A stretch of DNA of 24,581 bases from IMG/VR virus record IMGVR_UViG_3300031977_000998, positions 1 through 24,581 of that record. The stretch is one strand, 5' to 3'. Below, piece after piece: positions 6,302-24,290 of this stretch (its first letter is position 1; every line of letters starts with the position of its first letter). The notes below the pieces were generated by a model, which had not been told where the DNA came from, made no database searches, and was given only the letters and a program-made list of their open reading frames with translations. A program made the translations under genes and the position numbers. Source of the stretch: a virus.

Positions 6302-7059
6302 TGGATTCTAGATTACGAGTTATATTAGGAGTCTTGCTTGTTGCTGCTGGTATTTTTTATGATAAAATTAAAAAATCAGAAGCACCAAAGTTAAAGGCTC
6401 CAGACTCTTCTATTGTTTCTTTAGTTAATAAACTTCCAGAAATAACAAGCGAAACTGATTCTAATAAACTTTCAGGTACTTTTTTTTCTATATCAGAAGG
6501 AGTTCCAAAAACAAATTTAGAATCTAACCTGCAAGTTCAATATTATTTGGACTATGTTGGTAAGAATACAATCGGAAACGAGTTACTTTTAGAAAATGGG
6601 CAAAAAAAATATCCTGATTTTTCTCCTGCTGCTGCATCAGCAATTGAAGAAACAATCGGCCCTCAAAACGAAAGTGATCCATTAACCGATGAAGAAAAGC
6701 AAAAACTAGAAAAATTATTTTATGGATTTGCTTGGAAATTATACAGTAGTTTACATGATGATGTCTTTGAAAAATATAAAGATAAGGCAAAAGCTGTAAT
6801 TGCAGAGTATAATTTAGATGAAGATATACCTGATACTGTTGTAGATACTGAGTGTATTTGTAATGGTAAAGGATATGTGATACATGGTGATGGTCATAAA
6901 ACTGATTGTCCGTGTATAGAGTCTGGAGAAGAATGTAAACATAATCCTGCTTGTAAAAGTAGTGGTGAAGAACCACCTCCTATACAAGAAGAAATAAAAT
7001 CACCAACCATAATACAAGAGAAAAAGAAAAAAGGTCTTTTAAAATGGCGGAAAAACTAA
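6301..7059 (+). CDS. Membrane-anchored or secreted protein with C-terminal Cys motif
   Basis: 252 residues. The ATG at 6301, overlapping the previous stop, is preferred to ATG 6292 because GGAGG (6287-6291) lies 9 bases before it. An N-terminal hydrophobic segment (about 5-20, LRVILGVLLVAAGIFY) acts as anchor or signal. The middle is polar and acidic. Residues 185-205 carry C-x-C, then GKGY and GDG, then C-P-C, followed by more Cys at 212 and 218, then a Pro/Glu/Lys-rich tail. The Cys module is DnaJ-repeat-like and resembles that of the 813-1046 protein. No enzymatic domain is recognised. The neighbours suggest an envelope, lysis or virion role. Confidence 0.75.
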   Translation: MDSRLRVILGVLLVAAGIFYDKIKKSEAPKLKAPDSSIVSLVNKLPEITSETDSNKLSGTFFSISEGVPKTNLESNLQVQYYLDYVGKNTIGNELLLENGQKKYPDFSPAAASAIEETIGPQNESDPLTDEEKQKLEKLFYGFAWKLYSSLHDDVFEKYKDKAKAVIAEYNLDEDIPDTVVDTECICNGKGYVIHGDGHKTDCPCIESGEECKHNPACKSSGEEPPPIQEEIKSPTIIQEKKKKGLLKWRKN

Positions 7060-7406
7060 AAGATTATGCAGAAGAACTTGCTTGGCAAGTTGGCAATGAT
7101 CTTAAACAATACGCGAGACAAGATCAGAAATATGGATTTGATCCTATTACTATTATAACTATTATAAAAATAATAATAGAACTTGTAAAATTGTGGAAAG
7201 ATACCCACAGTGACAAAGATGCAACAGAAATTGCTGAAAAATTTGGCAACATGTCTGTTCTTGAAAAATGGATACTATGGAGAACAGTAAGAAAGGATTT
7301 TGAAAATAGAAGAGAGGCTAAATATGTTTATCAATCTATGACTAAACTAACTAAAGAGATGTCTCTCCCAGCTCGTACTAAACTTTTTAACCTAGAGGAG
7401 AAATAA
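7044..7406 (+). CDS. Small protein with one amphipathic or membrane segment
   Basis: 120 residues, overlapping the previous gene by 16 bases. Residues 34-51 (PITIITIIKIIIELVKLW) are strongly hydrophobic with two lysines, consistent with a membrane span or a membrane-binding helix. Charged helical flanks surround it. The stop overlaps the next start (TAATG). I recognise no family. Together with its neighbours it forms a run of four small membrane-linked genes between the peptidase and a terminator. A lysis-accessory role (antiholin, spanin-like) is possible but unproven. Confidence 0.7.
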   Translation: MAEKLKDYAEELAWQVGNDLKQYARQDQKYGFDPITIITIIKIIIELVKLWKDTHSDKDATEIAEKFGNMSVLEKWILWRTVRKDFENRREAKYVYQSMTKLTKEMSLPARTKLFNLEEK

Positions 7407-7943: not shown

Positions 7944-8483
7944 ATGGTACATAAACCTTGTTTGATATTGAATCAAGACTATACTCCACTGACTATAATA
8001 AGTTGGAAACGTGCTTTATGTTTAGAAATCATAGGTAATGAGATGCCCGGAGAGGGTGTCTTTGTTCTAGAGCATTATTTAGATGATTGTGTTATATCTA
8101 GCGGGGGAGAAGAATTTTTTATACCTGCTGTAGCAGTAACTCCAAGATTCATCAAGAAAAGAAAAAGTGTTCCTGTTAAAAGGTATAATGTAGCAATAAG
8201 AGATGATTGGACATGTCAATATTGCAATACTAAATTACCATTAAACAAAACTACAATAGATCATATAATACCAAAGTCATCATTTAACAAAAAAGAAAAC
8301 GCGCATACTTGGGACAATGTTGTTATAGCATGTTCTAAATGCAATACTAAGAAAGGAAGCAAGACGCTTGAGCAGGCTGGTATGAAACTTTTAAAAAAGC
8401 CAACAGAACCAAATCCACATAATTTTATTTCCTTCATGTCTACTGATATACCTCAAGAATGGAGAACCTATGTACGAAGTTAG
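7944..8483 (+). CDS. HNH endonuclease
   Basis: 179 residues. The C-terminal half is a canonical HNH domain: paired zinc cysteines C91/C94 (WTCQYC) and C130/C133 (ACSKCN), the catalytic DH at 106-107, and N125 in HTWDN. The N-terminal 80 residues (LNQDYTPLTIISWKRA) are the extension common to a widespread bacterial/phage HNH family. It could be a free-standing homing-type endonuclease or serve in genome processing or host DNA degradation. Unlike the terminase-linked HNH proteins, no terminase gene is nearby. It is the first gene after a terminator and the first of the long downstream operon. Confidence 0.92.
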   Translation: MVHKPCLILNQDYTPLTIISWKRALCLEIIGNEMPGEGVFVLEHYLDDCVISSGGEEFFIPAVAVTPRFIKKRKSVPVKRYNVAIRDDWTCQYCNTKLPLNKTTIDHIIPKSSFNKKENAHTWDNVVIACSKCNTKKGSKTLEQAGMKLLKKPTEPNPHNFISFMSTDIPQEWRTYVRS

Positions 8484-9830: not shown

Positions 9831-10265
9831 ATGGCAAAAAAGCAAACTCAAAAAAGCAAGTACCCATCTCGTTATTCGCCAAACGGCTGGGTACATGCGG
9901 CTCAGTATGTTACAGAATTGATTTGCGAAAAGAAAGCAAAAACAGAAGGTAAAGAGCTTCCCTTAAAGTTTTGGGAATTAAAAGAATGGCTAAAATTCTA
10001 CAGATATCAAATCACCTTAGCTAATAAACTTATCAAAGAATACGGTGAGCATGTTATCATATCTGCATTAAATGACAAAAGAATGTGGAAAACTTATTCT
10101 TTAAGAAGTCCGTTTTTGAAGAACGTGATTGAAGAATATCAAAAGAAACAGGAAATTGCTAAAGAAGTAGCAAAAAAAGTAGAGTATGATTTTTCTGACA
10201 AGAAAACTTTCGAGTCAAGTAATAAGAAAAAATCAATCATATCAAAACTTAGGGATTTAGAATGA
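9831..10265 (+). CDS. Hypothetical basic protein before the recombinase
   Basis: 144 residues from ATG 9831. A TTG at 9825 is in frame, but no SD distinguishes the two. The protein is Lys-rich and helical, with conserved-looking aromatic stretches (PNGWVHAAQYVTELIC and LKFWELKEWLKFYRYQ) and a disordered basic tail. It overlaps the RecA-like gene by four bases. In phages, small basic proteins in this place may be helicase loaders or recombination mediators. That is a contextual guess; no motif proves it. Confidence 0.72.
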   Translation: MAKKQTQKSKYPSRYSPNGWVHAAQYVTELICEKKAKTEGKELPLKFWELKEWLKFYRYQITLANKLIKEYGEHVIISALNDKRMWKTYSLRSPFLKNVIEEYQKKQEIAKEVAKKVEYDFSDKKTFESSNKKKSIISKLRDLE

Positions 10266-11254
10266 GTGAAAAAGATATATTAAAAGAGTTTGGAGATGTC
10301 TTACTAGAAGCATCTTATATTGTTGAAAATCCGCCTCCAATTATTTCTGTTAGTCCAAAGATTGACATAGCATTGGGTGGTGGTGTGCCAGAAGGCTGTC
10401 TTTTTATTATGACCGGCCCTGAAAAGGTAGGTAAAACAGTTCATGCTTTACAATTCTGTAAAAATGCACAAAAGGTAAAGCTAGAAAATGATGAAAAGAG
10501 AAAGATCTACTATGGCAATATAGAAGGTAGATTAAAGAAAAGAGACTTAGAAGGCATTAAAGGTCTTGAATTTGATCCAGAAAGTCTAAAGATTGTAGGT
10601 TCTACAAAAGGAAACATTCTATCTGGAGAAAAATACTTAGGAATTTTTGATAATATCATTCACAATGAGCCACATGCTGTGTGCGTTATTGATTCTTTCT
10701 CTGCTCTAGCAGCAGAAGCAGAACTGGTTAATGATATTACAGATGTTCAAGTTGCTGCCATGAATCGTTATCTTAGCAAGTTTACTAGGAGGTTTGCAAA
10801 TGTTTTGCCAATCAATCGTGTTACTCTTGTTGGTATTACTCACCTCATGGCTAACATCCAAAAGTTTGGTGCGGGTAAAAGTAAGGTAGAGAAATCAGGA
10901 AGTGCGTTGAAGTATGCTCAAGATGTGAAGTTGTGGGCTACCCACAAGGAAGCATTGAAGCAAGGAGAAACTCAGATTGGACAAAAAGTTCACTGGGTTG
11001 TAGAAAACTCTGCCATTGGTGCTCCGGGACAAAAAGTTACGAGTATAATTAAGTATGGACATGGTATTTGGAACGAATATGAATTAGCTGAATTGGCTAA
11101 GGATTATGGATTAGTAGAAGGAAAGACTTGGCTAACCTTGCCTAATGGTGAGAAGGTTCAAGGCATGTCAAACTTTGCTACATATCTTGAAGAAAATCCA
11201 TCTTACTATGATGATCTTAGGCAACAAGTATTTGAAATGGTAGGAATGGCATGA
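10262..11254 (+). CDS. RecA/UvsX/RadA-like recombinase ATPase
   Basis: 330 residues. A RecA-type core: Walker A GPEKVGKT at 52-59, Walker B CVIDS at 141-145, and a glycine-rich approach (IDIALGGGVPEG). A segment around 198-212 (NIQKFGAGKSKVEKSG) sits where DNA-binding loop L2 is found in UvsX-type proteins. It likely forms filaments on single-stranded DNA for strand exchange, repair and recombination-driven replication. Length is close to RecA and UvsX. A RadA/Sms- or DnaB-type role is less likely because a separate DnaB-like helicase is encoded at 12657. Confidence 0.88.
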   Translation: MSEKDILKEFGDVLLEASYIVENPPPIISVSPKIDIALGGGVPEGCLFIMTGPEKVGKTVHALQFCKNAQKVKLENDEKRKIYYGNIEGRLKKRDLEGIKGLEFDPESLKIVGSTKGNILSGEKYLGIFDNIIHNEPHAVCVIDSFSALAAEAELVNDITDVQVAAMNRYLSKFTRRFANVLPINRVTLVGITHLMANIQKFGAGKSKVEKSGSALKYAQDVKLWATHKEALKQGETQIGQKVHWVVENSAIGAPGQKVTSIIKYGHGIWNEYELAELAKDYGLVEGKTWLTLPNGEKVQGMSNFATYLEENPSYYDDLRQQVFEMVGMA

Positions 11255-11661
11255 GAGTAAGAGACTTGCATGGTAATGTATCTTCTTGGAAATTAACAGG
11301 AGATATCGTTTCTGCTAGTGATAATAGGAAGCGATCAAATCTACATGTAGAAGCTAGAAAGCTTTTATATGAGCTGTTTCCTACTATGCAAATACTAGAG
11401 GAAGTTCCAATAAAGCCAAGAACTATAAATACTCAATATCTTGATTTCTATATCAATCAGATTAAACTTGCTGTGGAAGTTCATGGACAACAACATTATA
11501 AATTTAATTCTATGTTCCATGCTTCCGCGCAAGATTTTCTGAACCAAAGAAGAAAAGATGCTGATAAAAAGGATTGGTGCGAGATAAATAATATTACTTA
11601 TATTGAACTACCTTATAATAAAAAGGTTGAGGAATGGAAAGAGATAATTCAATCGCGTTAG
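11251..11661 (+). CDS. Vsr/DUF559-like endonuclease (EDxHD-type)
   Basis: 136 residues, start overlapping the recombinase stop. The core reads YLDFYINQIKLAVEVHGQQHY (61-81 region): D65 followed by E76-x-H78, then a conserved K/D-rich helix (RRKDADKKDWCEINNI) and IELPY. This pattern is typical of Vsr-fold nucleases, including the EDxHD homing endonucleases and DUF559. It probably cuts DNA. The gene may be a free-standing homing endonuclease in the recombination cluster or a domesticated nuclease working with the recombinase (for example in junction or end processing). An upstream Glu (E35) could be the first E of the motif. Confidence 0.78.
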   Translation: MRVRDLHGNVSSWKLTGDIVSASDNRKRSNLHVEARKLLYELFPTMQILEEVPIKPRTINTQYLDFYINQIKLAVEVHGQQHYKFNSMFHASAQDFLNQRRKDADKKDWCEINNITYIELPYNKKVEEWKEIIQSR

Positions 11662-12122: not shown

Positions 12123-12655
12123 ACAAAAAGGAACTTATAGCAAAACTTCTAAACAAGTTAAGTGAAGAAGATTTAATGGAACTGCTCAGTGATGAGCCAG
12201 AACCAAAACAAGAAGAACAAGTTAATGTACATATCCACTCTACTAGATCTGAAGGGACAAGTCACAGAAGAAAAGGTAGAGGACATTCTAAGAACTCAAA
12301 AACGCCTAGAAAATCAAAAGGTAATAAGAGATCATCTAAAAAATACACAAACTCTAAAGGTAGGGCGTGTAGAGTATTACCAATAGATATAGATTCAGAT
12401 AGAGTCAATAAATTTGAGGAAATGATAGGATCTGCTAATCTAGACGCAAATGAGAGAGTAGAATTGGCTAAGGCATCACAAGAAGATGAGAAAGCAAGAG
12501 AAGTAAAGACTTCTTTTAAAAAGCCTTCACGACAATCTTCTTTAGTTGATGTTGAGTGTTGCGTGTGTGGAGATGACTATGAAGTTTCTTCTACGCTCGT
12601 AGGCAATATTGATCGTTGGAAATGTAATTCTTGTTCATGTCAAGCTGGATATTAA
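12119..12655 (+). CDS. Basic low-complexity protein with C-terminal zinc ribbon
   Basis: 178 residues. The N-terminus is helical and acidic (ELIAKLLNKLSEEDLMELL). A long Lys/Arg/Ser-rich segment (48-82) follows, and the C-terminus carries C147/C148/C150 and C169/C172/C174 in zinc-ribbon spacing. The disordered basic part suggests binding to DNA or RNA. It directly precedes the helicase gene (one base between stop and ATG), so a replication accessory role, such as helicase or primase loading, is plausible. No family is recognised. Confidence 0.75.
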   Translation: MNKKELIAKLLNKLSEEDLMELLSDEPEPKQEEQVNVHIHSTRSEGTSHRRKGRGHSKNSKTPRKSKGNKRSSKKYTNSKGRACRVLPIDIDSDRVNKFEEMIGSANLDANERVELAKASQEDEKAREVKTSFKKPSRQSSLVDVECCVCGDDYEVSSTLVGNIDRWKCNSCSCQAGY

Positions 12656-12656
12656 T

Positions 12657-14114
12657 ATGATTTTATCTGACCCCGCTGCTGAGAGAGCAGTATTAGCTGG
12701 TATTTGTCGTCATGGATCTGAAGCTTACTTTGATGTAGCTGATATTGTAGATGCAAATACTTTCACTGTCGATTCAAATGCAATCATCTTTAGTTGTGCT
12801 AAAAGACTCTTAGACGAAGATGATACTAGAAAGATTGACGTTCCATCTATTCTATCTGCTGCAAAAGAGATAGGTCTTAGCGATTTCTTTAATAATAAGA
12901 ATGAAATCTCACATCTAAATGCTGTGATGAAGTTCCCAGTATTATTTGAGAATGTGAGAAAGTTTGCTGCAAAAACCAGAAAACTTCAAATAGCAAGAAT
13001 GATGGTAGATCAACTAGATGAAACAAAAGAAAAGTATACCCAGCTAAAGGGCGATGAGTCAGTGTCTCATATTCTTGGGATCGCTGAAGAATCAATTTTT
13101 GATTTCACTTCTCTACTTAATGACCATGACGATGCGCCAGAACTTCTATTCGGGGATTTGGATGAGTATTTGGAAGATAAAGCAGAGAATCAAGTGGATC
13201 AAATCGGGATTGCAACCGGCTTTACAAAGTACGATTTTGCAATCGGCGGGGGATTGAGAAAGGGGACTGTGAATGTTATCGGAGCAAGAACCAAGGTTGG
13301 TAAAAGTTTGATTGGCCTAAACATGGGTGCAGATATTGCTAACCGAAACATTCCTGTTCTCTATCTCGATACCGAAATGACCAAGAAAGACCAACAGAAC
13401 CGTGGAGGCTCTATGCTTTCATATGGTACTAATGGTAAATCAACTATCAATGATATTGAGACTGGACAATTTGCAAACAATGATTTCAGAAAAAATTCAT
13501 TGATGGAACTTGCAAAGAACAAAAAGAATATCCCATTCTATCATAAGAATATTGGTGGAAAGCCATTTGAAGATCAGCTTTCTATCATGAGAAGATGGTT
13601 AGCCAAGGTCGTTGGATTGAACGATCATGGCAAAGCGAAAGACTGTGTTATTGTATATGACTATGTTAAACTTATGGAAGCTTCTGAGCTTGCTAAGAGT
13701 GATCTAAAAGAATTTCAATTGTTGGGATTCATGATGACTGCACTTCATAACTTCGCATTACGATACGAAGTACCTATTTTATCTTTTATCCAATTAAATA
13801 GGGACGGTATCAACAAAGAATCAACTGATGCGGCTAGTGGTTCTGATAGAATCATGTGGTTGTGTTCTAATTTTACAATTTACAAGCAAAAATCTGACGA
13901 AGAAATTGCTCAGGATGGAGCAGAGAACGGAAATAGAAAGTTAGTACCTATTATCGCAAGACATGGAGAAGGTCTAGATAGCGGAGACTATATCAATGTC
14001 CTGATGAAAGGTGCTTACGCTAAACTGTTGGAAGGTCCAACTGCTTACGAATTGGCTAATGGTGGTTCTTATACGGAAGATGAAGTAGATGAAGAAGAAG
14101 ACGTGGCCTTCTAA
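12657..14114 (+). CDS. dnaB: Replicative DNA helicase, DnaB-like
   Basis: 485 residues. The ATG at 12657 gives the usual DnaB start (ILSDPAAERAVLAGIC), so the in-frame upstream ATG at 12609 is rejected. The N-terminal helical domain (1-110) is followed by a RecA-type core: Walker A GARTKVGKS at 209-217, D238/E240 in LDTEM, Walker B VIVYDY at 331-336, and LSFIQLNRDG at 375-384. It should form a hexameric 5'-3' helicase at the fork. The adjacent primase overlaps by 26 bases, as expected for a helicase-primase pair. The acidic tail (EDEVDEEEDVAF) may contact partner proteins. No intein is present, although phage helicase genes are frequent intein sites. Confidence 0.93.
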   Translation: MILSDPAAERAVLAGICRHGSEAYFDVADIVDANTFTVDSNAIIFSCAKRLLDEDDTRKIDVPSILSAAKEIGLSDFFNNKNEISHLNAVMKFPVLFENVRKFAAKTRKLQIARMMVDQLDETKEKYTQLKGDESVSHILGIAEESIFDFTSLLNDHDDAPELLFGDLDEYLEDKAENQVDQIGIATGFTKYDFAIGGGLRKGTVNVIGARTKVGKSLIGLNMGADIANRNIPVLYLDTEMTKKDQQNRGGSMLSYGTNGKSTINDIETGQFANNDFRKNSLMELAKNKKNIPFYHKNIGGKPFEDQLSIMRRWLAKVVGLNDHGKAKDCVIVYDYVKLMEASELAKSDLKEFQLLGFMMTALHNFALRYEVPILSFIQLNRDGINKESTDAASGSDRIMWLCSNFTIYKQKSDEEIAQDGAENGNRKLVPIIARHGEGLDSGDYINVLMKGAYAKLLEGPTAYELANGGSYTEDEVDEEEDVAF

Positions 14115-15234
14115 ATATACAGATCAGGCAAAGATTAATGAGCTAACTGAAATAGTATTAGAAAATATAGAAGACATCTATGAGTATTTTGATGTGAATT
14201 ATCATAGAGGTCAGAAGGTATATTTTTCTGAGTGCTTTATTCATGGTGGTGACAATAGATCTGCTCTTAATTTATATTACGATGCAGATTTTAGAGTTCA
14301 TTTCAAATGCAGAACTCACGGGTGTCAAAAACATTTTGGTACATCGCTATTGAGTATGATTCGTGGAGGATTATCTCATATAAAATATGGATGGACAGTT
14401 CCGGGAGATAAAACAGTAACATTTGACCAGACGATTGACTTTCTTCTTGACAGATACAAATTGAATTTCAATGGACTGCAAGGACAAAGCATTGACTCTG
14501 GAAACCATGAGTTCAGTAGGCTCGTTAATAATCTATCTGGATCTAAGACTAGAGGTAAAATAACCAGAGATTTTTATAGAGAAAGGGTTGAGATTCCATC
14601 AACTTACTATATGAATCGTGGATACAGTATCGAAGTTTTAGATGATTATGATGTAGGTGTTTGTAAGACATATGGAAAGCCTATGTATAATCGCTCTGTT
14701 GTTCCTATCTATGATGACATTGGAGAAACCATTATTGGTTTTTCTGGAAGAAGTATTTTTGACCAATGCGAAAAGTGTAAATCGTATCATGACCCATCAA
14801 AAGATTGTTACTATTTTCCAAAATGGAGACACTCTAAGGGGTTTGAAAAAGAAAAAGCATTGTATAATTATCATAATGCGAAAGAACATATTGCGTCTAG
14901 TGGGGTCATTATACTTGTTGAATCGCCCGGAAATGTCTGGAGACTAGAAGAATCTGGAATCCATAACTCTGTCGGATTATTTGGCACTACACTAAATCCT
15001 CCACAAAAACATTTAATTGATGAATCTGGTGCTTTGACTATTGTTATTATTATGGACAACGATGATAATGATGCTGGTCAAAAGGCAGCAGAAGAGATCA
15101 AGCAGCAGTTAGAAAAAACGTATCGTGTTTATATCGTTGATATCAATAAGAACGATGTTGGCGAGATGAGTACAAATGAAGTTACTGAAGATATTTTACC
15201 ATTAATCAATCAAGCAAAAGAGGTATACTTATGA
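14089..15234 (+). CDS. dnaG: DNA primase, DnaG-like
   Basis: 381 residues. A zinc-binding CHC2-like site (C49-x2-H52, C74 and C79 with H77 between) is followed by the RNA-polymerase domain (IYDDIGETIIGFSGRSI) and TOPRIM: E278 in ILVESPG and the acidic triad region D323/D325/D326/D328 in MDNDDNDAG. A second Cys group (C227, C230, C240) lies before TOPRIM, an insertion I know from other phage primases. It makes RNA primers for lagging-strand synthesis with the helicase. The C-terminal helicase-binding domain of bacterial DnaG is very short or missing. The ATG overlaps the helicase end and GGAAG lies upstream. Confidence 0.92.
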   Translation: MKKKTWPSKYTDQAKINELTEIVLENIEDIYEYFDVNYHRGQKVYFSECFIHGGDNRSALNLYYDADFRVHFKCRTHGCQKHFGTSLLSMIRGGLSHIKYGWTVPGDKTVTFDQTIDFLLDRYKLNFNGLQGQSIDSGNHEFSRLVNNLSGSKTRGKITRDFYRERVEIPSTYYMNRGYSIEVLDDYDVGVCKTYGKPMYNRSVVPIYDDIGETIIGFSGRSIFDQCEKCKSYHDPSKDCYYFPKWRHSKGFEKEKALYNYHNAKEHIASSGVIILVESPGNVWRLEESGIHNSVGLFGTTLNPPQKHLIDESGALTIVIIMDNDDNDAGQKAAEEIKQQLEKTYRVYIVDINKNDVGEMSTNEVTEDILPLINQAKEVYL

Positions 15235-15461
15235 GCGTTAAAAAACATGCTATTAACTATCTTTATAGCAAAGCAGAGTCAGAGTACGAATCAGCACTTA
15301 TGACATTTGAGCTTCTACTTAATAATCCTGTTGGTATCGGAGATCACTCTACTGGTGATTTTGAAGGCAATTTGGATCAAGCTCTACAAAAGCTATGTGA
15401 TGCAAAAGACAAATTAGATATGGTTGAGTGGATTGATGCTGAATATGGAGAAGATGTATGA
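15231..15461 (+). CDS. Small acidic hypothetical protein
   Basis: 76 residues, coupled to both neighbours by 4-base overlaps. It is helical and acidic, with a central Gly/Asp-rich turn (GIGDHSTGDFEGN) and the end DMVEWIDAEYGEDV. No motif identifies a function. Conserved-looking packing in the primase/dNMP-kinase operon supports a real gene. Confidence 0.7.
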   Translation: MSVKKHAINYLYSKAESEYESALMTFELLLNNPVGIGDHSTGDFEGNLDQALQKLCDAKDKLDMVEWIDAEYGEDV

Positions 15462-16207
15462 CACAAATCATAGGATTCGCTGGTAAAAAGCAAAGTGGTA
15501 AAAGCACTTGTTGCAATTTCATTATTATGCTAAAACTAATTGAGGATGGAGTTTGTAAGAAAGCCAGACTTAATGAAGATGGTGAGATTGAAGTATCTGA
15601 TGTATTTGGTGAAACAACTGATAAGGAATATTTTCCATTTAAAGCACCATATGTAAATGTTCAAGCTGTTTTAGACCAGATGGGATCAGTTAAGTTATAT
15701 GCATTAGCAGATCCTCTAAAGCGTATTATTATTGATATATTTGGTCTTGATGAGAATAAGGTATATGGAACAGATGATGATAAGAATAGTGTTACCCATC
15801 TAAAATGGAAAGACCTTCCTAAGAAAGTTGCTGGAAAGAGTGGCTTTATGACTATTCGTGAAGTGCTTCAATACTTAGGTACAGAAGTATTTAGGAAGAT
15901 GTATAATGATGTGTGGATTGATACCCTTGTTAGAAGGATCAAAAAAGATAATCCAAAGATCGCTCTTGTTTGTGATGTCAGATTTGATAATGAAATCGAG
16001 CTGCTTAAAAAGAACGATGCTATCGTAGTTGGTCTAAAGAGAGATTTGTTTGATTCCAAAGATACACATGCAAGTGAAAAGGTTAATCTTTCAAAATGCC
16101 ATGCAATAATTAATAATCAAGACTTAGAGATTCCAGAACTAAATAAGCAAGTTTATTTTGCATTGAAAGATTTGGAATGTAATAATCTTACAGATTTAGG
16201 AGTTTAA
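15458..16207 (+). CDS. Deoxynucleoside monophosphate kinase
   Basis: 249 residues. The P-loop GKKQSGKS (9-16) follows a beta strand (TQIIGFAG). LADPLKRII, REVLQYLGTEVFRKM and the later DVRFDNEIELLK are signatures of phage dNMP kinases of the T4 gene 1 type. It should phosphorylate dNMPs to dNDPs with ATP, salvaging nucleotides from degraded host DNA. It works with dCMP deaminase and ribonucleotide reductase encoded upstream. An insertion of acidic residues (LNEDGEIEVSDVFGETTD) between the P-loop and the base-binding region is moderately long. Start overlaps the previous stop. Confidence 0.9.
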   Translation: MTQIIGFAGKKQSGKSTCCNFIIMLKLIEDGVCKKARLNEDGEIEVSDVFGETTDKEYFPFKAPYVNVQAVLDQMGSVKLYALADPLKRIIIDIFGLDENKVYGTDDDKNSVTHLKWKDLPKKVAGKSGFMTIREVLQYLGTEVFRKMYNDVWIDTLVRRIKKDNPKIALVCDVRFDNEIELLKKNDAIVVGLKRDLFDSKDTHASEKVNLSKCHAIINNQDLEIPELNKQVYFALKDLECNNLTDLGV

Positions 16208-16208
16208 T

Positions 16209-17300
16209 ATGGGAATACCAATCGTATACTTCAGAAGTAGTTCTTTCAATACTCACAGAACTTGTCCTATGCAATTCTATATGGAGTATACGCTTGGCCT
16301 GCGTGGACTCGGTGGTAAGAAAGCCGATAAAGGAACTATCACCCATAAGATCTTAGAAATTACTGCTTTATGTAAAAAGGCAGAGCAAGATGGAATCAAG
16401 ATAATTGATGATGAAGATATTGGAGAAGTCTTTACAGACAATTATGAACCAGAGTATCTTAATGCAATAGGTGCTAGGGTTTATGAGTATTATACTAAAA
16501 ATCTTTTTAATTACCATACTGGTAAAAATGTATGGAGAGATAGAGACTTTGAAGATTGTTTAAGCTGGGCTTGGAAAGCATTAAAATTCAAAGATGGAAT
16601 GTATGACCCAAGAAAAAGAGATGTGGTAGACGCTGAACCGCATTTTGATTTTGAGATCAAAAAAGACTGGGCTAAGTATGATTATCCAGAGTATAATTTA
16701 TCTGGACATCTAGCACTTAAAGGCACAATTGACTTGGTTGCTGATTTAGGCGATGGTGTCTATGAAGTTATCGACTGGAAAACGGGTCAAAGAAAAGACT
16801 GGGCAACTGGTAAAGAATATAACCAGAACAATCTATTCACAAACCCGCAGCTAAGAATGTATCACTACGCATGTAAGCATTTGTATCCAGAGGCAAATAC
16901 ATTCCTAATGTCCATCTACTTCATTAATACTGGTGGTCCATTCACTGTTCATTTTCAAGACTCAGACCTGAATCAAACAGAAGATATTCTTGCAAAGAGA
17001 TTTGAAGAGATTAAGAATACTGATGAACCAGCCATACTTCCTAGAATCAGGCCAAAAGATAGATGGAAGTGTCGCACAATGTGTGATGCCGGAAAAACAA
17101 CTTTTGAAGGCACAAACATTGAACCAATAAAAGAGCATAGACCGGGACAAAGAACTCGATACGGAGAGGTAATGACTAAATGCGAACAAGTTAGGTATAT
17201 GATAAAATTAAAAGGTATTGATTGGGTTACTAGACATTATATGTCTCCCGGCTATACTATTGGTAAGTATGGTTCTGGGGGAGGAAAGGTTCAGGATTAA
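16209..17300 (+). CDS. RecB/Cas4-type PD-(D/E)XK nuclease
   Basis: 363 residues. AGGAG (16198-16202) precedes the ATG. Motifs of the RecB nuclease superfamily: S-F-x-T-H-R-T-C-P near the N-terminus (C19), H46 in GTITHKILE, D175 in KGTIDLV, E186-x2-D189-W-K191 (EVIDWKTG), and Q214/Y218 in PQLRMYHY. Additional C288, C292 and C325 near the C-terminus, with C19, are placed as in Fe-S-containing relatives such as Cas4 and AddB. The spacing differs from the usual C-x2-C-x5-C, so cluster binding is uncertain. Expected role: exonuclease in recombination and end processing. The stop overlaps the DnaE start. Confidence 0.88.
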   Translation: MGIPIVYFRSSSFNTHRTCPMQFYMEYTLGLRGLGGKKADKGTITHKILEITALCKKAEQDGIKIIDDEDIGEVFTDNYEPEYLNAIGARVYEYYTKNLFNYHTGKNVWRDRDFEDCLSWAWKALKFKDGMYDPRKRDVVDAEPHFDFEIKKDWAKYDYPEYNLSGHLALKGTIDLVADLGDGVYEVIDWKTGQRKDWATGKEYNQNNLFTNPQLRMYHYACKHLYPEANTFLMSIYFINTGGPFTVHFQDSDLNQTEDILAKRFEEIKNTDEPAILPRIRPKDRWKCRTMCDAGKTTFEGTNIEPIKEHRPGQRTRYGEVMTKCEQVRYMIKLKGIDWVTRHYMSPGYTIGKYGSGGGKVQD

Positions 17301-19189
17301 TGAAATATACGCCTCTTCATGTTCATTCGGAATATTCGCTACTAGATGGATTGAGCAAATGTAATAATATTACAAAACGTATTGAAAAGATTGGTGCTTC
17401 AGCCTGCGCTTTAACAGATCATGGGTCTGTAAGCGGGGCTGTTGACTTTTCAAGAGAAATGAAATCTGCTGGACTAAGACCTCTTCTTGGTAGCGAACTT
17501 TATGTTTGTCCAGATGATAGTGCGAGTGTAAGAAGGAAAGAAAACAAGAGATTAGTGCATCAACCAATCATTGCAAAAAATCTTGATGGATGGAAAGACC
17601 TTCTTCATATAGTTTCTTTATCTAATAGAAAAGAGCATTTTTATCATAAGCCAAGAGTCGATTTTGAAATTCTGGAACAAATTGGAAGCAAAGGTAATTT
17701 AATATGCTTTAGCGGACATTTAGGTTCTATTCTTGCTGATGCTATCACTGATGGAGAAAGTCTTGATCCTGACTGGAAAAAGAAAGGTGTCCGTATGGCA
17801 AGAAAACTTCAGTCAATGTTTGGTAAAGAAAACTTCTTTATCGAAATCCAATTAATTGATTCTAAAGTTAATAAGTTCGCTGAAGTAGTTGGAAATGCCC
17901 TTAGAGATATTGCTAAAGTAGTTGAAGCTCCTTGTGTTGCAACTCCAGATGCTCACTACTGCGAGAGAGATGATGCTGAAGATCAGCGTGTTTTGCTTTG
18001 CACTTACTTTAAGAAGAATATTTCTCAAATAGAAAGAGAGCTAAAGCAAGGTACGGCTAACCGTTCTCTTATGACATTCTTCCGTTCAAATAACTATCAC
18101 ATTCCATCGTATGAAGATATGAAAGTATTTCATACAGATGAAGAACTTGCTAATACAAACTTGGTATTGGATATGTGTGATGATTATAACATTCTTAAAT
18201 CGCCAGAGCCTCCACAGTTTAAATGTCCTGATAGCATGAGTCCAGAAGAATATTTAAGAAAACTTAATCGTGACGGTTGGGCTAGAAAGATGGGGCATGT
18301 CACTAAAGGAACTGAAGATTTTGCAAGATACGGAGACAGAGTAAACAATGAGCTTGAAGTTTTTACCTCAATCGGTTTGTCCAGTTATTTTCTTATTGTT
18401 GATGATATTCTCCGCTTTGTTAGATCAAAAGGGTATATTACTGGTCCGGGACGTGGCTCGGCTGCTGGATGTATGGTTTCCAATTTGCTGGGTATTACTC
18501 AGGTAGATCCTATTCCATATAACCTAATCTTTGAAAGATTCTACAATGCTGGTCGTAATGCGCCCGGAAAAATCTCTTGGCCTGATATTGACTTTGATAT
18601 TCCAAAAGCAGCAAGAGAAGAAACTATTGAATATATTAAAGGCAAGTATGGTGAAGAATGTGTTGCTCAAATTCAGACATTCCAAACACTTAAAGGCAAA
18701 GCATCTCTTACAAGAGTGATGGGCGCTCGTGGAAACATTTCTTTTGATGAGCAAAAAGCAATCACAAAATGTCTACAAGATGAAGCAAAGGTTTCTGATG
18801 AGCTAAAAGATATTGAAGAAGAATATGGTTACTCATCTAGTATTTTATGGGCATTGGAAAATACTCCAGATAAGTTAAAACAATGGTGTCATCTTGGTAA
18901 AGATGGAAAACTTGAAGGAAAGTTTGCCAAGATTTTTGAACAAGCCATTAGAATTGAACATACAAAAATTATTTCGGGTACACATGCAGCGGGTATTGTT
19001 GTATCCAGTAAACCTATTAGTGAATCTTGTCCTATGGTTCTAGATAGTAAAGGTAAAAGCTATCGTGCTGGTTTTGATGGTCCAAGTTGTGAAGATTCTG
19101 GACTTTTGAAATTGGATTGTTTGGCTATTAGAGGATTAGATAAAGTTATGGACGTTGTAAACATAGTCGGAGGTGAAGACCTGTGTTAG
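17300..19189 (+). CDS. dnaE: DNA polymerase III alpha, N-terminal half (PHP, thumb, palm)
   Basis: 629 residues. The PHP domain spans about 1-270, with metal-site candidates H7/H9, D40/H41, E66, H140, D217/H219. The palm follows: GPGRGSAAG at 382-390, D431 and D433 in WPDIDFDI, and the third catalytic Asp D606 in KLDCLAIRGL. THAAGIVVS at 561-569 is also typical. The protein then stops at residue 629, in the linker that in E. coli leads to VFQLES of the next domain. That remainder is encoded as a separate protein at 20561. There is no intein sequence at the end. The 3' end contains GGAGG, the SD of the next gene. It is the catalytic part of the phage replicase and needs the C-half for DNA and dNTP binding. 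Confidence 0.94.
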   Translation: MKYTPLHVHSEYSLLDGLSKCNNITKRIEKIGASACALTDHGSVSGAVDFSREMKSAGLRPLLGSELYVCPDDSASVRRKENKRLVHQPIIAKNLDGWKDLLHIVSLSNRKEHFYHKPRVDFEILEQIGSKGNLICFSGHLGSILADAITDGESLDPDWKKKGVRMARKLQSMFGKENFFIEIQLIDSKVNKFAEVVGNALRDIAKVVEAPCVATPDAHYCERDDAEDQRVLLCTYFKKNISQIERELKQGTANRSLMTFFRSNNYHIPSYEDMKVFHTDEELANTNLVLDMCDDYNILKSPEPPQFKCPDSMSPEEYLRKLNRDGWARKMGHVTKGTEDFARYGDRVNNELEVFTSIGLSSYFLIVDDILRFVRSKGYITGPGRGSAAGCMVSNLLGITQVDPIPYNLIFERFYNAGRNAPGKISWPDIDFDIPKAAREETIEYIKGKYGEECVAQIQTFQTLKGKASLTRVMGARGNISFDEQKAITKCLQDEAKVSDELKDIEEEYGYSSSILWALENTPDKLKQWCHLGKDGKLEGKFAKIFEQAIRIEHTKIISGTHAAGIVVSSKPISESCPMVLDSKGKSYRAGFDGPSCEDSGLLKLDCLAIRGLDKVMDVVNIVGGEDLC

Positions 19190-19395
19190 ATTTTAAAAAA
19201 GATATGGTCAGTCTTTCCTTAAAATATCCATTCATTAAAAAAGTTATGATTGATCCTGAATCATGGGGTGAAATGTGCGTATCTTTTGATAAGATGCTTG
19301 GAGAGCAACAAGGATATACTGAGAAATATATAGAGTCAAAAAGTGGATCAATGTGTTTTCAAAAATTATGCGTGGAGAAATTAGATGAAGAATAA
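19183..19395 (+). CDS. 70-residue protein inside the split polymerase locus
   Basis: GTG start at 19183, 7 bases inside the DnaE N-half gene, with a strong SD (GGAGGTGA) 9 bases upstream of it. The 70 residues contain three Cys and an alternating charged/hydrophobic pattern (KYPFIKKVMIDPESWGEM). It does not look like a piece of DnaE or of an intein. No family is recognised. Its end overlaps the exonuclease start by 11 bases. It may stabilise the split polymerase or serve an unrelated role. Confidence 0.68.
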   Translation: MLDFKKDMVSLSLKYPFIKKVMIDPESWGEMCVSFDKMLGEQQGYTEKYIESKSGSMCFQKLCVEKLDEE

Positions 19396-20074
19396 TAGAT
19401 GGATTATATGTTTTGACTTTGAAACAGATTTACCTGATAAAGACCTGTGCAATCCAGTTCAGTTAGCTGCTGTTCCGATTGATCCAGAAACCCTTGAAGT
19501 TAAAAAAGATCAAGCTTTTAATACCATGATTAAACCAGATGGTATTGATAAAACAGAATATTTTGAAGTACCTAAGAGAGAAGCCACAATTAATTGGCAC
19601 GCTCAAAACTACGGTATTACATATGAAGAAGTCATTGAAAGATGGAAAGGGGGAGTATCAGAGAAGGTTGCTTGGAAAAATTTTGCAACATACTGTAAAA
19701 AATATACAGTTGATAAAAAACCCGGACAATGGTTTCCTGAACCGATTCCAGCGGGGTACAACATTACAGGATTTGATATTCCGATTGCAGAACGTTTGTG
19801 TAAAAAACACAAAGTTAAAATGCCATTTTCGTCAGTCACAAAGCTAGATGCTATGGATAATTTGTTCTGGTGGTTTGAAAATCTTGAAGAACCATATGAT
19901 TTCAAAATGGATACTTGGCGTAAATTCTTTGGAATGAAAGCATTGGGCGTTGCGCATGATGCGCTTATTGATGTATTTGAAGAAGCAGCAATCATTACTA
20001 GATTTTTGAAATTTCATAGAAAACAATCTTCAATTTCTAAATTTAAAGGAAGTTTTGAGAACGTAGAGATATGA
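19385..20074 (+). CDS. dnaQ: DnaQ-like 3'-5' proofreading exonuclease (DEDDh)
   Basis: 229 residues. Exo I is D11/E13 in CFDFETD, Exo II is D131 in GYNITGFDIPI, and Exo III is H191/D196 in AHDALIDVFEEA. This is the complete DEDDh set of the epsilon/RNase T family. It should remove mismatched 3' ends made by the polymerase. The gene lies between the two polymerase halves and is coupled to its neighbours (overlaps of 11 and 4 bases), so all parts of the replicase are made together. Some DEDDh proteins degrade RNA or single-stranded DNA instead, but the context supports proofreading. A C-terminal tail of about 25 residues could be a DnaE-binding peptide. Confidence 0.9.
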   Translation: MKNNRWIICFDFETDLPDKDLCNPVQLAAVPIDPETLEVKKDQAFNTMIKPDGIDKTEYFEVPKREATINWHAQNYGITYEEVIERWKGGVSEKVAWKNFATYCKKYTVDKKPGQWFPEPIPAGYNITGFDIPIAERLCKKHKVKMPFSSVTKLDAMDNLFWWFENLEEPYDFKMDTWRKFFGMKALGVAHDALIDVFEEAAIITRFLKFHRKQSSISKFKGSFENVEI

Positions 20075-20568
20075 TAGAAGTTCAAATAACTGAAGAGATG
20101 AAGAAACGCGCATGGAAAAAGTCACGAGAAATGGGCGAGATAAATAACTCAATCATGAAAGGTGATGGAAATATTGCAGGTTTTTTAGGAGAAGAGATTG
20201 CAAATGAGATATTGCATGGTAGAATATGTAATACCTATGACTATGACATAGTTACTGATAATGCTACTTGGGATGTAAAAACAAAAAGATGCACCAGTCC
20301 TCCAAAAGAATTCTACGACTGTTCTGTTGCTAACTACAATACTAAACAGAAATGTGATAATTATATTTTCGTGCGTATTGAAAACAAGAATGGTCGCTGG
20401 GGTAGAGCTTGGGTTGTAGGATGGTTGCCTCATAGTGAATACTATAAAAAATCAAGGAAGCTAGTTAAAGGACAAAAAGATCCTTCAAACGGATATATTG
20501 TCAGGGCAGATTGTCATAATGTTGCCATCAAAGATTTGAACAAAGTTGAGGAATTGCAGTATGAGTGA
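20071..20568 (+). CDS. PD-(D/E)XK nuclease-like protein
   Basis: 165 residues. E41/E42 in GFLGEEIANEIL, an acidic approach strand (YDYDIV, D57/D59), and TWDVKTKR with D68-V-K70 give the alpha-E, D, (D/E)-x-K layout of PD-(D/E)XK nucleases. Cys residues at 74, 84 and 95 might add a structural metal site. The sequence ends VEELQYE, overlapping the DnaE C-half start by 8 bases. It could be a homing-type nuclease that once mobilised this segment, or a replication/repair nuclease. The family is known from phages, but its function is unproven. Confidence 0.78.
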   Translation: MIEVQITEEMKKRAWKKSREMGEINNSIMKGDGNIAGFLGEEIANEILHGRICNTYDYDIVTDNATWDVKTKRCTSPPKEFYDCSVANYNTKQKCDNYIFVRIENKNGRWGRAWVVGWLPHSEYYKKSRKLVKGQKDPSNGYIVRADCHNVAIKDLNKVEELQYE

Positions 20569-22186
20569 TTTTATAGAATTTCCATGTGGTTGTAAGTTTA
20601 AAAAAAATGCAAAAGGACTTCCTGTATTTAATCCCAATATCGAAGCATTACCACTTGATTGTGAAATGACTTGGGATATGATTTGTGAAGGAAATACTAA
20701 GGGGGTTTTTCAGCTTGAATCACAACTTGGTCAAAGCAAAGCAAAAGAAGTAAAGCCAAGAACAGTTGAAGAATTGTCTGATCTTATTGCTATTATTCGT
20801 CCGGGATGTGGTGATGCTATTGTAGATGGTAAATCTCTTACCCAGCACTATATTGATAGAAAAGCAAAAAGAGATGAAGTTAAATTCTTTGATCCAAGAT
20901 TAAAGCCAATTCTAGAATCAACATATGGTATTCTTGTATACCAAGAGCAAGCTATGCAAATAGCACAACTCGTTGCTGGATTCTCTCTACAGCAAGCAGA
21001 TAACCTCAGAAAAGCGATTGGTAAAAAGAAGGTTGATCTGATGGCAGAAGTTAAAAAAGAGTTCATGGAAGGCGCAGTAGACTTTACAGAGAAGGATGCA
21101 GAAGAAATCTTTAGCTGGATTGAGAAGTCTCAGAAATACTCTTTCAATAAATCTCACTCCGTAAGTTATGCTCTTAATGGATATCAGACAGCCTATGCCA
21201 AAGCCCACTTCCCTAGAGCATTCTTTACATCATATCTTCGTCATGCAGACGGAAAGCCTAAACCATTTGAAGAGATCAACGATCTTGTCAATAATGCTAG
21301 ATCAATGGATATTGATGTTCAGCCTCCAAGCATCATAAACATGAATGAAAACTTTTGCTTGGTAGATAAAAAGCCTACTTTTGGACTTGTTAATGTTAAA
21401 AGCGTTGGTGTCAGTGTATTCAAGCAAATTTATAATGTAGTAAAAGAGAACTCCTATGATGTTTCTAAGATGGACTGGGAAGAGTTCCTTATGAAGATTG
21501 GTAGGTATATCAAATCAAACTCTTTTGACTCTATGATTAGGGCAGGAGTGTTTGACTGCTATAAGAGACAGAGAAATGAAATGCTTTACCACTACAATAT
21601 ATTTAAGGAATTGAAGGATTCTGATAAGAAATATCTGTCTGAGTGTGATAGCAAAACTTTTGTTGATGGTTTGAAATCATTGATCCCTCATATTAAACAG
21701 TCCAAGAAAGCTACTGTGCATAGAGAGAGGCATATTGAAAATATTACTGGCTCTATTTCTGCCCTAGAAGCACCTCCTTATGAACTAATTGATAGGTGGT
21801 CTTGGAGAGCAAAACAAGAAAGAGACTTGCTTGGTGTTGAAATAACATGTTCTGATGTTGATGAGTATGATACAAGCAACGCAAATTGTACTTGCAGAGA
21901 ATACCTAAAAGGATTTGAAGCAAACTGGATAGCAATAGGTGCTCAGATCAGTGATATTAGGGAGTGGAAAATAAGAGGAGGGCAGCATAAAGGTGAAACT
22001 ATGGCTTTTCTAAAAATTTCAGATAGTTCTTGTTCTTTAGATAATGTTACTGTTTTTTCTGAAGATTGGAAGAAACTCAAGAGTAAAATTGAGATAGGCA
22101 AAGTTTTTTTGCTTAGAGGAAACAAAGATAAAAATCGAGGAAGTTTTTTAGTAAAACAAGCACAAAACATGGAACAATGTATATAA
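20561..22186 (+). CDS. dnaE: DNA polymerase III alpha, C-terminal half (fingers, beta-binding, OB)
   Basis: 541 residues from ATG 20561; GAGGAA lies just upstream and an earlier in-frame start (20546) adds only five residues. Residues 48-54 (KGVFQLES), 121-150 (YGILVYQEQAMQIA region, RKAIGKKK) and 195-220 (FNKSHSVSYALNGYQTAYAK) match the DnaE fingers region of E. coli closely. A helix-hairpin-helix (GLVNVKSVGVSVFKQI, 275-290) and a beta-clamp-side segment (QERDLLGVEIT) follow, then an OB fold (about 453-537). Together with the N-half it gives 1170 residues, like intact DnaE. The first 23 residues contain PCGC and have no counterpart in E. coli DnaE. Confidence 0.94.
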   Translation: MSDFIEFPCGCKFKKNAKGLPVFNPNIEALPLDCEMTWDMICEGNTKGVFQLESQLGQSKAKEVKPRTVEELSDLIAIIRPGCGDAIVDGKSLTQHYIDRKAKRDEVKFFDPRLKPILESTYGILVYQEQAMQIAQLVAGFSLQQADNLRKAIGKKKVDLMAEVKKEFMEGAVDFTEKDAEEIFSWIEKSQKYSFNKSHSVSYALNGYQTAYAKAHFPRAFFTSYLRHADGKPKPFEEINDLVNNARSMDIDVQPPSIINMNENFCLVDKKPTFGLVNVKSVGVSVFKQIYNVVKENSYDVSKMDWEEFLMKIGRYIKSNSFDSMIRAGVFDCYKRQRNEMLYHYNIFKELKDSDKKYLSECDSKTFVDGLKSLIPHIKQSKKATVHRERHIENITGSISALEAPPYELIDRWSWRAKQERDLLGVEITCSDVDEYDTSNANCTCREYLKGFEANWIAIGAQISDIREWKIRGGQHKGETMAFLKISDSSCSLDNVTVFSEDWKKLKSKIEIGKVFLLRGNKDKNRGSFLVKQAQNMEQCI

Positions 22187-22198
22187 TAAGGATATAAT

Positions 22199-22642
22199 AT
22201 GGATGAACTTATAGAAGAAAATATGGGCCTAGTTGTATCAATCGTAAATTCTTTTGGTCCAAAAAATCACACAGAAAGAGAAGATTTAATAGATGCTGGA
22301 AGAATTGGCCTTTGGAAAGCATTAAAAAAATATAAATCTGAAAATGGTTTAATCTCTACTTATGCTTGGCGACCTATTAGGTGGTCGATAATTAGAGAAA
22401 TTAAAAGCAGAAGAGTTCATGCTTCAATAGATAATATTGCATCGCCCTCGGTAGAAAGCAAAGATAATCTATGGGAAACTTATACTATTGACATGACAGA
22501 AGAAGAGAAGCGTTTAATTGAATTAAGAAAAGAAGGATATAAGTTCCATGAAATTTGTAGCCTTCTAAATCAAAAACCATCTAAAGTTAAAAATAAATTC
22601 TACCGACTTATAAATAGGTTAAAAGAGGCAAATGCAGAATAA
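22199..22642 (+). CDS. Phage sigma-70-family factor
   Basis: 147 residues, shorter than usual. Region 2 is clear: EENMGLVVSIVNSF, then EREDLIDAGRIGLWKALKKY and STYAWRPIRWSIIREI (about 7-68), the core-binding and -10-recognition helices. Residues 99-143 (EEEKRLIELRKEGYKFHEIC, then QKPSKVKNKFYRLINRL) form a region-4-like helix-turn-helix that is divergent. Region 3 is missing. It would redirect host RNA polymerase to phage promoters, probably middle or late. AAGGA lies 7 bases before the ATG. A T4 gp55- or SPO1 gp28-like role is the nearest comparison by type, not by sequence. Confidence 0.82.
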   Translation: MDELIEENMGLVVSIVNSFGPKNHTEREDLIDAGRIGLWKALKKYKSENGLISTYAWRPIRWSIIREIKSRRVHASIDNIASPSVESKDNLWETYTIDMTEEEKRLIELRKEGYKFHEICSLLNQKPSKVKNKFYRLINRLKEANAE

Positions 22643-24290
22643 AAAAAGAATATTGTTTGTAACTGAATCTCACAAACTAGCTTCTGGATTTGGTACATAT
22701 GCAAAGGAGGTCTTACATAGAGTTCATGCAAGTGGTAAATATGAAATTGCGGAGTTTGCTTGCTATGCATCTTCTGTAGATTTTCAAAATTATCCTTGGG
22801 TTATCTATGGAAATGCACCATGTCCACAGGAATCAGAAACAGAATGGGCTAAACAACACTCTACTAATCCAAATTTTCAGTGGGGTGTTGGAAGGTTTGA
22901 ACATGCTGTTTTAGATTTTAAACCAGACATTGTGGTTACTTATAGAGATCCTTGGATGGATGCGTATATTCACAACTCATCTTTACTTCCATTCTTTCAT
23001 TGGGTATGGATGCCAACCGTTGATAGTGAGCCTCAGAAAGACGAATGGCTTTACTGGTTTGAAAGGTGCGATGGTCTTATGGCATATTCAGAATATGGTA
23101 TTAGGACATTAGAAGAGCAAACAAATGGAAGATTAAAATTTCATGGTTGTGCTTCTCCAGCAATAGATCCAATCCAGTTTAATATCATTCCAAATAAGAG
23201 AGCGCACAAAGAAAAGTTTGGTATTGATCCAGATAGTTTTATTGTTGGAACTGTTATGCGTAATCAAAAGCGTAAAATGTTTCCAGATCTTATGCGTGGC
23301 TTTAAAGAGTTTTTAGAAAAAGCACCAAAAGATATCGCAGAAAAATCATATCTGTATCTTCATACTAGCTACCCAGAAAAAATGGGATGGAATATTACAT
23401 CCCTAGTTCATGAGATGGGGTTGGGTTCAAATTTGCTAGTAACATATGTCTGTAGATCATGCAAGCAATATACTACTTCGCATTACAGAGATGCTATTAC
23501 AATATGTGAAAAATGTGGTAGTCATGCTGCAACGATGCCCGGAGTACAAAATGGAGTGCCTCACTCAGAGCTTAGTAACATATATAATTTAATGGATTTG
23601 TATGTTCAGTATGCAATCTGTGAGGGGTTTGGTATGCCTCAAGTAGAAGCTGCTGCATGTGGAACACCAATAGCTTCAATAAACTACAGTGCTATGGAAG
23701 ATGTTGTAAAATTTTGTAATGGATATGCAATTGAACCAAATCTTTCTAGAGAAATGGAAACCAATGCAGATAGGTCTGGGCCAAACAATAGTAAACTCTC
23801 AGAAATATTGTTACATTGTGCAACAATGAAAGAGTCTCAATATAATAAAAAGAGATTAGAAACAAGAAAAGGATGTATATCAAGATATACTTGGGATAAT
23901 GCAGCAAAATCTTGGATGGATTATTTTGATTCCGTAGATCTAACAAAGAAACCATTGTTAGGAAAATGGGATTCGCCAGCTATGATTAACGATATTCCTA
24001 AAGAAATTCCTAAGAATCTTAATAACTTACAATTCTGTGAGTGGATATTTAATTCAGTTATTCAAGACGAATCTAAAATGTATAGTTATGATATGCTTAC
24101 AATGCTAAGAAACTTAAATTTTGGAGCAGCATTAAATACAGATGTTGGTCAGTATGACAGGAATCGTGCATTTGAAGAAAGTAAAAATTATGCACAACAA
24201 AGAAAGTATTTTGATTCACTAAGAGTCGAAAACGATCCTAGCAAAAAACCAATATTTATTCAGGAAGCACTTAGGAGATTCTCAAAATGA
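22632..24290 (+). CDS. Glycosyltransferase (GT-B, GT4-like) with an inserted zinc ribbon
   Basis: 552 residues. The N-terminus (RILFVTESHKLASGFGTYA) is the first Rossmann domain with a GFG loop. The second domain shows the GT4 motif E331-GFGMPQV-E339, which binds the sugar-nucleotide, followed by AAACGTPIAS. Between them, residues 274-295 hold CRSC and CEKC pairs (C274, C277, C292, C295), a zinc ribbon inserted in the second domain. A long C-terminal extension (about 440-552) has no recognised domain. Acceptor is unknown: phage DNA bases, virion proteins or host surface sugars are all possible. It overlaps the sigma-factor gene by 11 bases and precedes another glycosyltransferase-like gene. 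Confidence 0.88.
   Translation: MQNKKRILFVTESHKLASGFGTYAKEVLHRVHASGKYEIAEFACYASSVDFQNYPWVIYGNAPCPQESETEWAKQHSTNPNFQWGVGRFEHAVLDFKPDIVVTYRDPWMDAYIHNSSLLPFFHWVWMPTVDSEPQKDEWLYWFERCDGLMAYSEYGIRTLEEQTNGRLKFHGCASPAIDPIQFNIIPNKRAHKEKFGIDPDSFIVGTVMRNQKRKMFPDLMRGFKEFLEKAPKDIAEKSYLYLHTSYPEKMGWNITSLVHEMGLGSNLLVTYVCRSCKQYTTSHYRDAITICEKCGSHAATMPGVQNGVPHSELSNIYNLMDLYVQYAICEGFGMPQVEAAACGTPIASINYSAMEDVVKFCNGYAIEPNLSREMETNADRSGPNNSKLSEILLHCATMKESQYNKKRLETRKGCISRYTWDNAAKSWMDYFDSVDLTKKPLLGKWDSPAMINDIPKEIPKNLNNLQFCEWIFNSVIQDESKMYSYDMLTMLRNLNFGAALNTDVGQYDRNRAFEESKNYAQQRKYFDSLRVENDPSKKPIFIQEALRRFSK

Follow-up and report, generated by a model that had tools for sequence, protein, structure and literature searches.

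A DnaE-type replicative polymerase encoded by two genes, with no intein found at the break, in a clade of uncultured phages

Introduction

We describe a phage locus in which the replicative polymerase DnaE is encoded by two stably conserved genes, each contributing part of one active site; no splicing element was detected where they part. Replicative polymerases normally have a catalytic core that consists of one chain. The locus was analysed in a virus record of 24,581 nt (the window, meaning the whole stretch of DNA); comparison loci are labelled with L-numbers (e.g. L184). The two genes probably specify a C-family replicative polymerase of two polypeptides, products of a single operon that associate by non-covalent docking, with an exonuclease likely to serve in proofreading and a cut that is ancestral.

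This is the only recognisable replicase in a widespread group of uncultured phages, and its active site is shared by two genes. The split is stable across deep divergence, apparently without splicing. If this reading is correct, the palm–fingers joint of DnaE can be broken while function stays, a natural split polymerase becomes available for engineering and the origin of multi-subunit enzymes becomes testable. These phages would be misinterpreted in surveys where 'fragmented' DnaE genes are merged or dropped.

Organization of the locus

The genes from the upstream replication module to the downstream glycosyltransferase are all on the + strand. The DnaE N-half (17300..19189; 629 aa) contains the PHP, thumb and palm regions and terminates in the linker after the palm. 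The C-half (20561..22186; 541 aa) opens with an extension (C-G-C...C pattern, about 25 residues), which is followed by the fingers, helix–hairpin–helix (HhH) and OB regions; it starts at the ATG at 20561, and the reading frame is already open from a TTG at 20546. A first-pass annotation had divided DnaE between these two open reading frames. Its coordinates were reproduced exactly, and the Pfam matches agree with its domain assignment: PHP (7e-33) and DNA_pol3_alpha (3e-60) were matched in the N-half, and DNA_pol3_finger (1e-44) and HHH_6 (9e-7) were above the cut-off in the C-half, with a weak OB match.

Three genes lie between the halves: a 70-aa protein (19183..19395) with a GTG start and a 7 nt overlap with the N-half, a DEDDh 3'-5' exonuclease (19385..20074; 229 aa; PHROG polymerase exonuclease subunit, 3e-10) and a putative PD-(D/E)XK-like nuclease (20071..20568; 165 aa). 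Neighbouring genes in the locus overlap by 4–11 nt, in line with the coupling noted earlier; the Shine–Dalgarno sequences, which had been called good throughout, are plausible for most of the genes.

Upstream of the N-half is a Cas4-like PD-(D/E)XK exonuclease (16209..17300; Pfam PDDEXK_1, 2e-19), a conserved neighbour in relatives. It is preceded by a replication module (12609..16207) that comprises a DnaB-like helicase (12609-14114), a primase (14089-15234) and a dNMP kinase (15458-16207); the assignments are based on PHROG and Pfam matches, and the gene order is kept in relatives. Downstream of the C-half, Pfam identified a sigma-70-like factor (22199-22642) and a glycosyltransferase (22632-24290), the order of which is kept in close relatives. 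Elsewhere in the window, a UvsX-like recombinase gene (10262-11254) overlaps a candidate gene for a free-standing homing endonuclease, a small ORF (11251-11661) that matches homing-endonuclease families in PHROG and, weakly, DUF559. A free-standing HNH endonuclease gene is found at 7944-8483 (Pfam HNH, 1.5e-13).

Domain composition and position of the cut

Pfam and PDB matches place PHP, palm, fingers, HhH and OB in DnaE order across both halves, the OB match being weak. Each half is predicted to fold well on its own: AlphaFold2 models of the N-half and the C-half alone have mean pLDDT values of 89.8 and 91.0, respectively, and the top PDB matches of both are DnaE structures.

The cut was located by alignment to solved alpha subunits. 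The N-half was matched to residue 628 of Taq alpha and the C-half from residue 644; the corresponding residues of Mycobacterium DnaE1 are 598 (end of the N-half match) and 606 (start of the C-half match). These gaps place the cut in a short linker near the palm–fingers boundary, the domain borders being those known for the Taq and E. coli enzymes. The linker is variable. At its other end the C-half stops about 60–100 residues before the end of Taq alpha, and the C-terminal (tau-binding) tail seems from this alignment to be absent, while the roughly 25 residues with the C-G-C...C pattern are gained at the N-terminus. The earlier observation that the summed length of the halves equals that of an intact DnaE is partly coincidental, because this loss and this gain are both contained in the figure.

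Of 39 relatives, 35 have the first two cysteines of the extension and 36 have the third; the cysteines are missing from a few divergent members, from L184 and from phage phiT1. The C-G-C...C region (window 20561-20665) is predicted to form a beta hairpin. The conserved cysteines may bind a metal where the new chain begins.

The first-pass annotation had also assigned a beta-binding part to the C-half. This was not borne out, as the clamp-binding motif Q..[LM]F was not found in C-half residues 280–450 of 39 sequences. Phage members of the DnaE family vary, and absence of the motif does not bar membership of the family as a whole. A search for a sliding clamp using beta and PCNA models gave no match; the gp45 clamp model matched nowhere, controls included.

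No substitution was seen in 39 relatives at the three palm aspartates named in the first-pass annotation (D431, D433 and D606) or at the finger residues R150, K151 and K156 of the C-half. Most of the 39 also retain the PHP metal-binding positions; L012, L018 and L025 have a degenerate PHP site. Retention of the PHP site in most relatives would also be expected if only one half were active (for instance a PHP nuclease in the case of the N-half, a DNA-binding protein in that of the C-half) and replication were left to an enzyme of the host, such as its polymerase, or to an unrecognised one. We regard this as improbable: without joint catalysis one would hardly expect invariant catalytic residues in both the palm and the fingers, the three relatives just named have lost an intact PHP site, and the phage encodes its own helicase and primase in the same operon.

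Conservation of the split

IMG/VR was searched with both halves and with their alignments, which yielded at least 179 loci, some of them the same contig twice; the clade is larger than this count. L249, a bacterial contig (about 1x coverage in its title) with a single in-frame stop near the cut site, was left out. Among the matches listed, the search for a shared break point, which had been proposed at the outset, returned the same linker cut in 158 of 158 viral loci with both halves, and none of these 158 has an intact DnaE. The junction sequences comprise at least 115 distinct examples from many metagenomes, with identities of about 38–90%. The matched ends of the halves are separated by 684 to 5613 nt. 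Distances calculated for the N-half and the C-half are correlated (0.94 for 90 loci), as expected of co-inherited genes. No record in the phage collection has halves of more than 60% identity, and the nearest intact polymerases are about 30–34% identical.

Where dS could be estimated, dN/dS was about 0.04–0.08 in both halves, with synonymous sites near saturation; these sequence estimates indicate that both halves are under purifying selection. In long virus records (89–224 kb, n = 19), one N-half domain and one finger domain were found in each, the single N-half domain of L150 lying in two exon-like pieces. Searches of these 19 records, which are possibly incomplete, for polymerases of families A and B gave no match. 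A second polymerase accompanied by decayed halves, raised earlier as a contrary possibility, was not encountered in these records among polymerases of these two families, and the halves are single-copy and under selection.

The window by itself is a single metagenomic contig, as would be the case for an assembly or sequencing artefact or for decayed pseudogene halves. Such an origin has a negligible probability given the at least 115 distinct junctions from many metagenomes, the low dN/dS and the presence of the same cut in the isolate phiT1, and the earlier statement that the split is no sequencing frameshift is upheld by the same junctions. As far as sequence can show, the evidence supports a split that is real and functional, because the break is conserved, purifying selection acts on the halves and no other polymerase was found on the long contigs.

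Inteins, introns and other insertions

No intein domain was detected by Pfam in either half. In nearly all loci the N-half ends about 0–15 residues past the conserved match, which leaves no room for an N-intein, and the C-halves begin with the short conserved C-G-C extension and have no C-intein block. No trace of an intein was found at any junction examined. The first-pass annotation had reported no intein pieces here, and both the Pfam searches and the tail lengths concur. Rfam returned no family for the window, the junction or the L150 insert.

Two relatives served as positive controls for the detection of inserted elements. In L168 a split intein, recognised from its own sequence and from weak Pfam matches, cuts the N-half at GPGRG|SAAGC; the N-intein is at the end of L168:5835-7205 and the C-intein, ending in VEGIGVHN|S, is at the start of L168:7293-8126. 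The N-half being split again (L168:5835-8126), the polymerase of this phage is encoded in three genes. In L150 (L150:3141-8119) an insert that carries a LAGLIDADG ORF (6414-7265) breaks the N-half gene immediately ahead of PDIDID; the insert is termed intron-like only, since it has no Rfam match. The Cas4-like gene upstream in L150 has an intein-like insertion with a LAGLIDADG domain. The DnaE insertions in L168 and L150 are at catalytic motifs, whereas the main cut is in the variable linker. In Bacillus phage Jayan (L264:3980-7387), a short stretch with a small ORF breaks DnaE at the same PDIDxD motif; this interruption is possibly an unannotated intron.

The intein-type elements of L168 and L150 are what might suggest that the halves are rejoined by trans-splicing, as in the cyanobacterial split DnaE and the marine fractured genes, with intein halves that are very divergent. 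We consider this very improbable in view of the missing intein domain and C-intein block, the N-half tails of 0–15 residues and the position of the cut in a variable linker rather than a catalytic motif; the FNKSH motif, moreover, is unbroken in the C-half.

Genes between the halves

The residues D11, E13, D131, H191 and D196 of the exonuclease are invariant in eight diverse relatives and correspond to the D-x-E, D and HxAxxD residues of DEDDh (DnaQ-like) exonucleases, so that its annotation as a complete DEDDh enzyme stands. Among the matches listed, all 158 loci with both halves have it between them. Because it is a constant neighbour of the halves, the exonuclease is likely to be a proofreading subunit or partner, and we infer that it belongs to the polymerase complex. 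With the L025 sequence as the query, no record in the phage collection matched the exonuclease. An apparent fusion of the N-half and the exonuclease (two loci, one contig) was rejected: a stop codon lies between them and had been overrun by the alignment.

For the nuclease candidate (20071-20568), no Pfam or PHROG match was obtained. The open reading frame is as annotated; its PD-(D/E)XK label has support from a D..DVKTK-type motif and from nothing else, and is retained as putative. The motif is conserved in most homologues and degenerate in one relative. The position of the gene differs among relatives: homologues are upstream of the N-half in L005, L006, L007, L008, L011, L012, L013, L017, L018 and L020, and among the close relatives examined only the window has it between the halves. 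The 70-aa protein has no family match in Pfam or PHROG and is present in only some close relatives (L002, L005, L009, L010, L013, L015, L016 and L019).

The gap between the exonuclease and the C-half may carry other genes, such as thyX in L013 and a D12-class methyltransferase in L025. An ORF of about 109–119 aa recurs in this gap (L003:10876-11205, L010:11109-11438 and L012:11016-11375); it has a nuclease-like VDGDTxDF motif and no Pfam match.

Sister lineage and phage phiT1

The split clade is monophyletic (100/99), with L184 as its sister (100/100). L184 (SHMW01000005.1:52510-66555) is located on a 104-kb contig and has the gene order and the cut of the split clade. Between its halves are a DUF4326 protein and a small ORF, with no exonuclease; a weak exonuclease-like match occurs at another place on the contig. 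The cut in L184 is therefore independent of the presence of an exonuclease between the halves. L184 and L181 (JABXKB010000087.1) are phage-like contigs binned in Lokiarchaeota MAGs, which seems likely to be mis-binning.

In the isolate Rossellomorea phage phiT1 (PV767480; gp20-gp19-gp18), DnaE is cut at the same linker. As in the window, a PHP–palm gene and a fingers–HhH–OB gene are separated by other coding sequence (here one small ORF of 49 aa) and no intein domain is present. Unlike the window, phiT1 has no exonuclease between the halves and no C-G-C extension, and its halves are about 30% identical to those of the window. An independent origin of the phiT1 break was suggested by a first tree; a careful tree and the AU test do not decide for it, the latter not rejecting a common origin with the split clade (p = 0.856). 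PhiT1 offers a tractable test system for the split polymerase.

The first-pass annotation had proposed either a non-covalently assembling polymerase–exonuclease complex or a fractured gene that had lost its inteins. Non-covalent assembly is the best remaining explanation; the exonuclease as the reason for the locus has to be qualified, because in L184 and phiT1 this break occurs with no exonuclease between the halves. The second proposal fares less well, with a break in a linker, insertions of relatives in catalytic motifs and no trace at the junctions. As an account of origin only, in which a mobile element (intein, intron or homing endonuclease) broke the gene and was then lost while the halves came to assemble non-covalently, it is somewhat doubtful. 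Mobile elements do strike the same gene in relatives, the window has a nuclease candidate between the halves, and a homing endonuclease is reported to have split a phage nrd gene (PMC10448857). Yet the known insertions of relatives are not at this linker, the nuclease candidate varies in position and does not lie between the halves in other close relatives, and L184 and phiT1 share the cut with unrelated small genes between.

Proposed assembly

In the preferred reading, a two-polypeptide polymerase that docks non-covalently, the N-half would supply PHP, thumb and the catalytic palm, and the C-half the fingers, HhH and OB domains. Made from one operon, the halves would dock near the palm–fingers boundary and so rebuild the active site, joined by neither protein splicing nor RNA splicing. 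The exonuclease encoded between them would be the likely proofreading subunit. The cut would have been fixed in the ancestor of the phage clade, with other genes entering and leaving the gap later. We infer both docking and joint activity.

A stronger form of this reading is put forward tentatively: the polymerase may be an obligate multi-subunit enzyme throughout the clade, whose members are large phages, with palm and fingers separate, a dedicated interface (possibly the C-G-C...C hairpin), the exonuclease as a third core subunit and an activity that depends on assembly.

Comparison with known split enzymes

In the cyanobacterial DnaE, the cut falls within the fingers, at FNKSH. This enzyme is encoded by two genes and joined by a split intein (PMC3919608, citing Caspi 2003). 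The window likewise has a two-gene DnaE, but no split intein was found, and FNKSH is intact. Dassa and colleagues are said to have described, in 2009, fractured genes of marine phages with split intein halves and an endonuclease. Phage MIJ3 has an intein-associated split PolB, also with split intein halves and an endonuclease (PMC6892783). In both cases, as in the window, further coding sequence separates the two parts of a phage replication gene; the difference is that they have intein halves at the break and the window has none.

In group 2.2 jumbo phages, a minimal Pol III alpha core is divided between two proteins from which the enzyme is believed to be reconstituted; the core lacks the remaining Pol III domains, the genes are distant and a family B polymerase is present alongside (PMC7824862). 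The window, in contrast, has the full domain set (PHP, HhH and OB) and adjacent genes, and no family B polymerase was found in the 19 long records. DnaE is likewise annotated as two genes in isolated phages of Gordonia (Suzy and Beyoncage) and Microbacterium (Tedro), where the cut is early, at about 318–345 residues in the PHP region, whereas that of the window is in the polymerase core.

A precedent for the proposed assembly is the ribonucleotide reductase gene of a phage (NrdA), which is reported to have been divided by a homing endonuclease into two working polypeptides (PMC10448857). The likeness to the window lies in an essential enzyme of nucleotide metabolism whose two polypeptides cooperate without splicing; the enzyme is a different one, and its gene was divided by that of a homing endonuclease.

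In the non-subscription literature searched, we met no account of a full-length DnaE whose split is intein-free and fixed in a phage clade. Split viral enzymes are already known, and a full-length intein-free clade-fixed split of DnaE is apparently new. The split in the window combines a full domain set, a cut in the polymerase core, a break without an intein, a constant exonuclease neighbour and fixation in a large clade as the only polymerase found.
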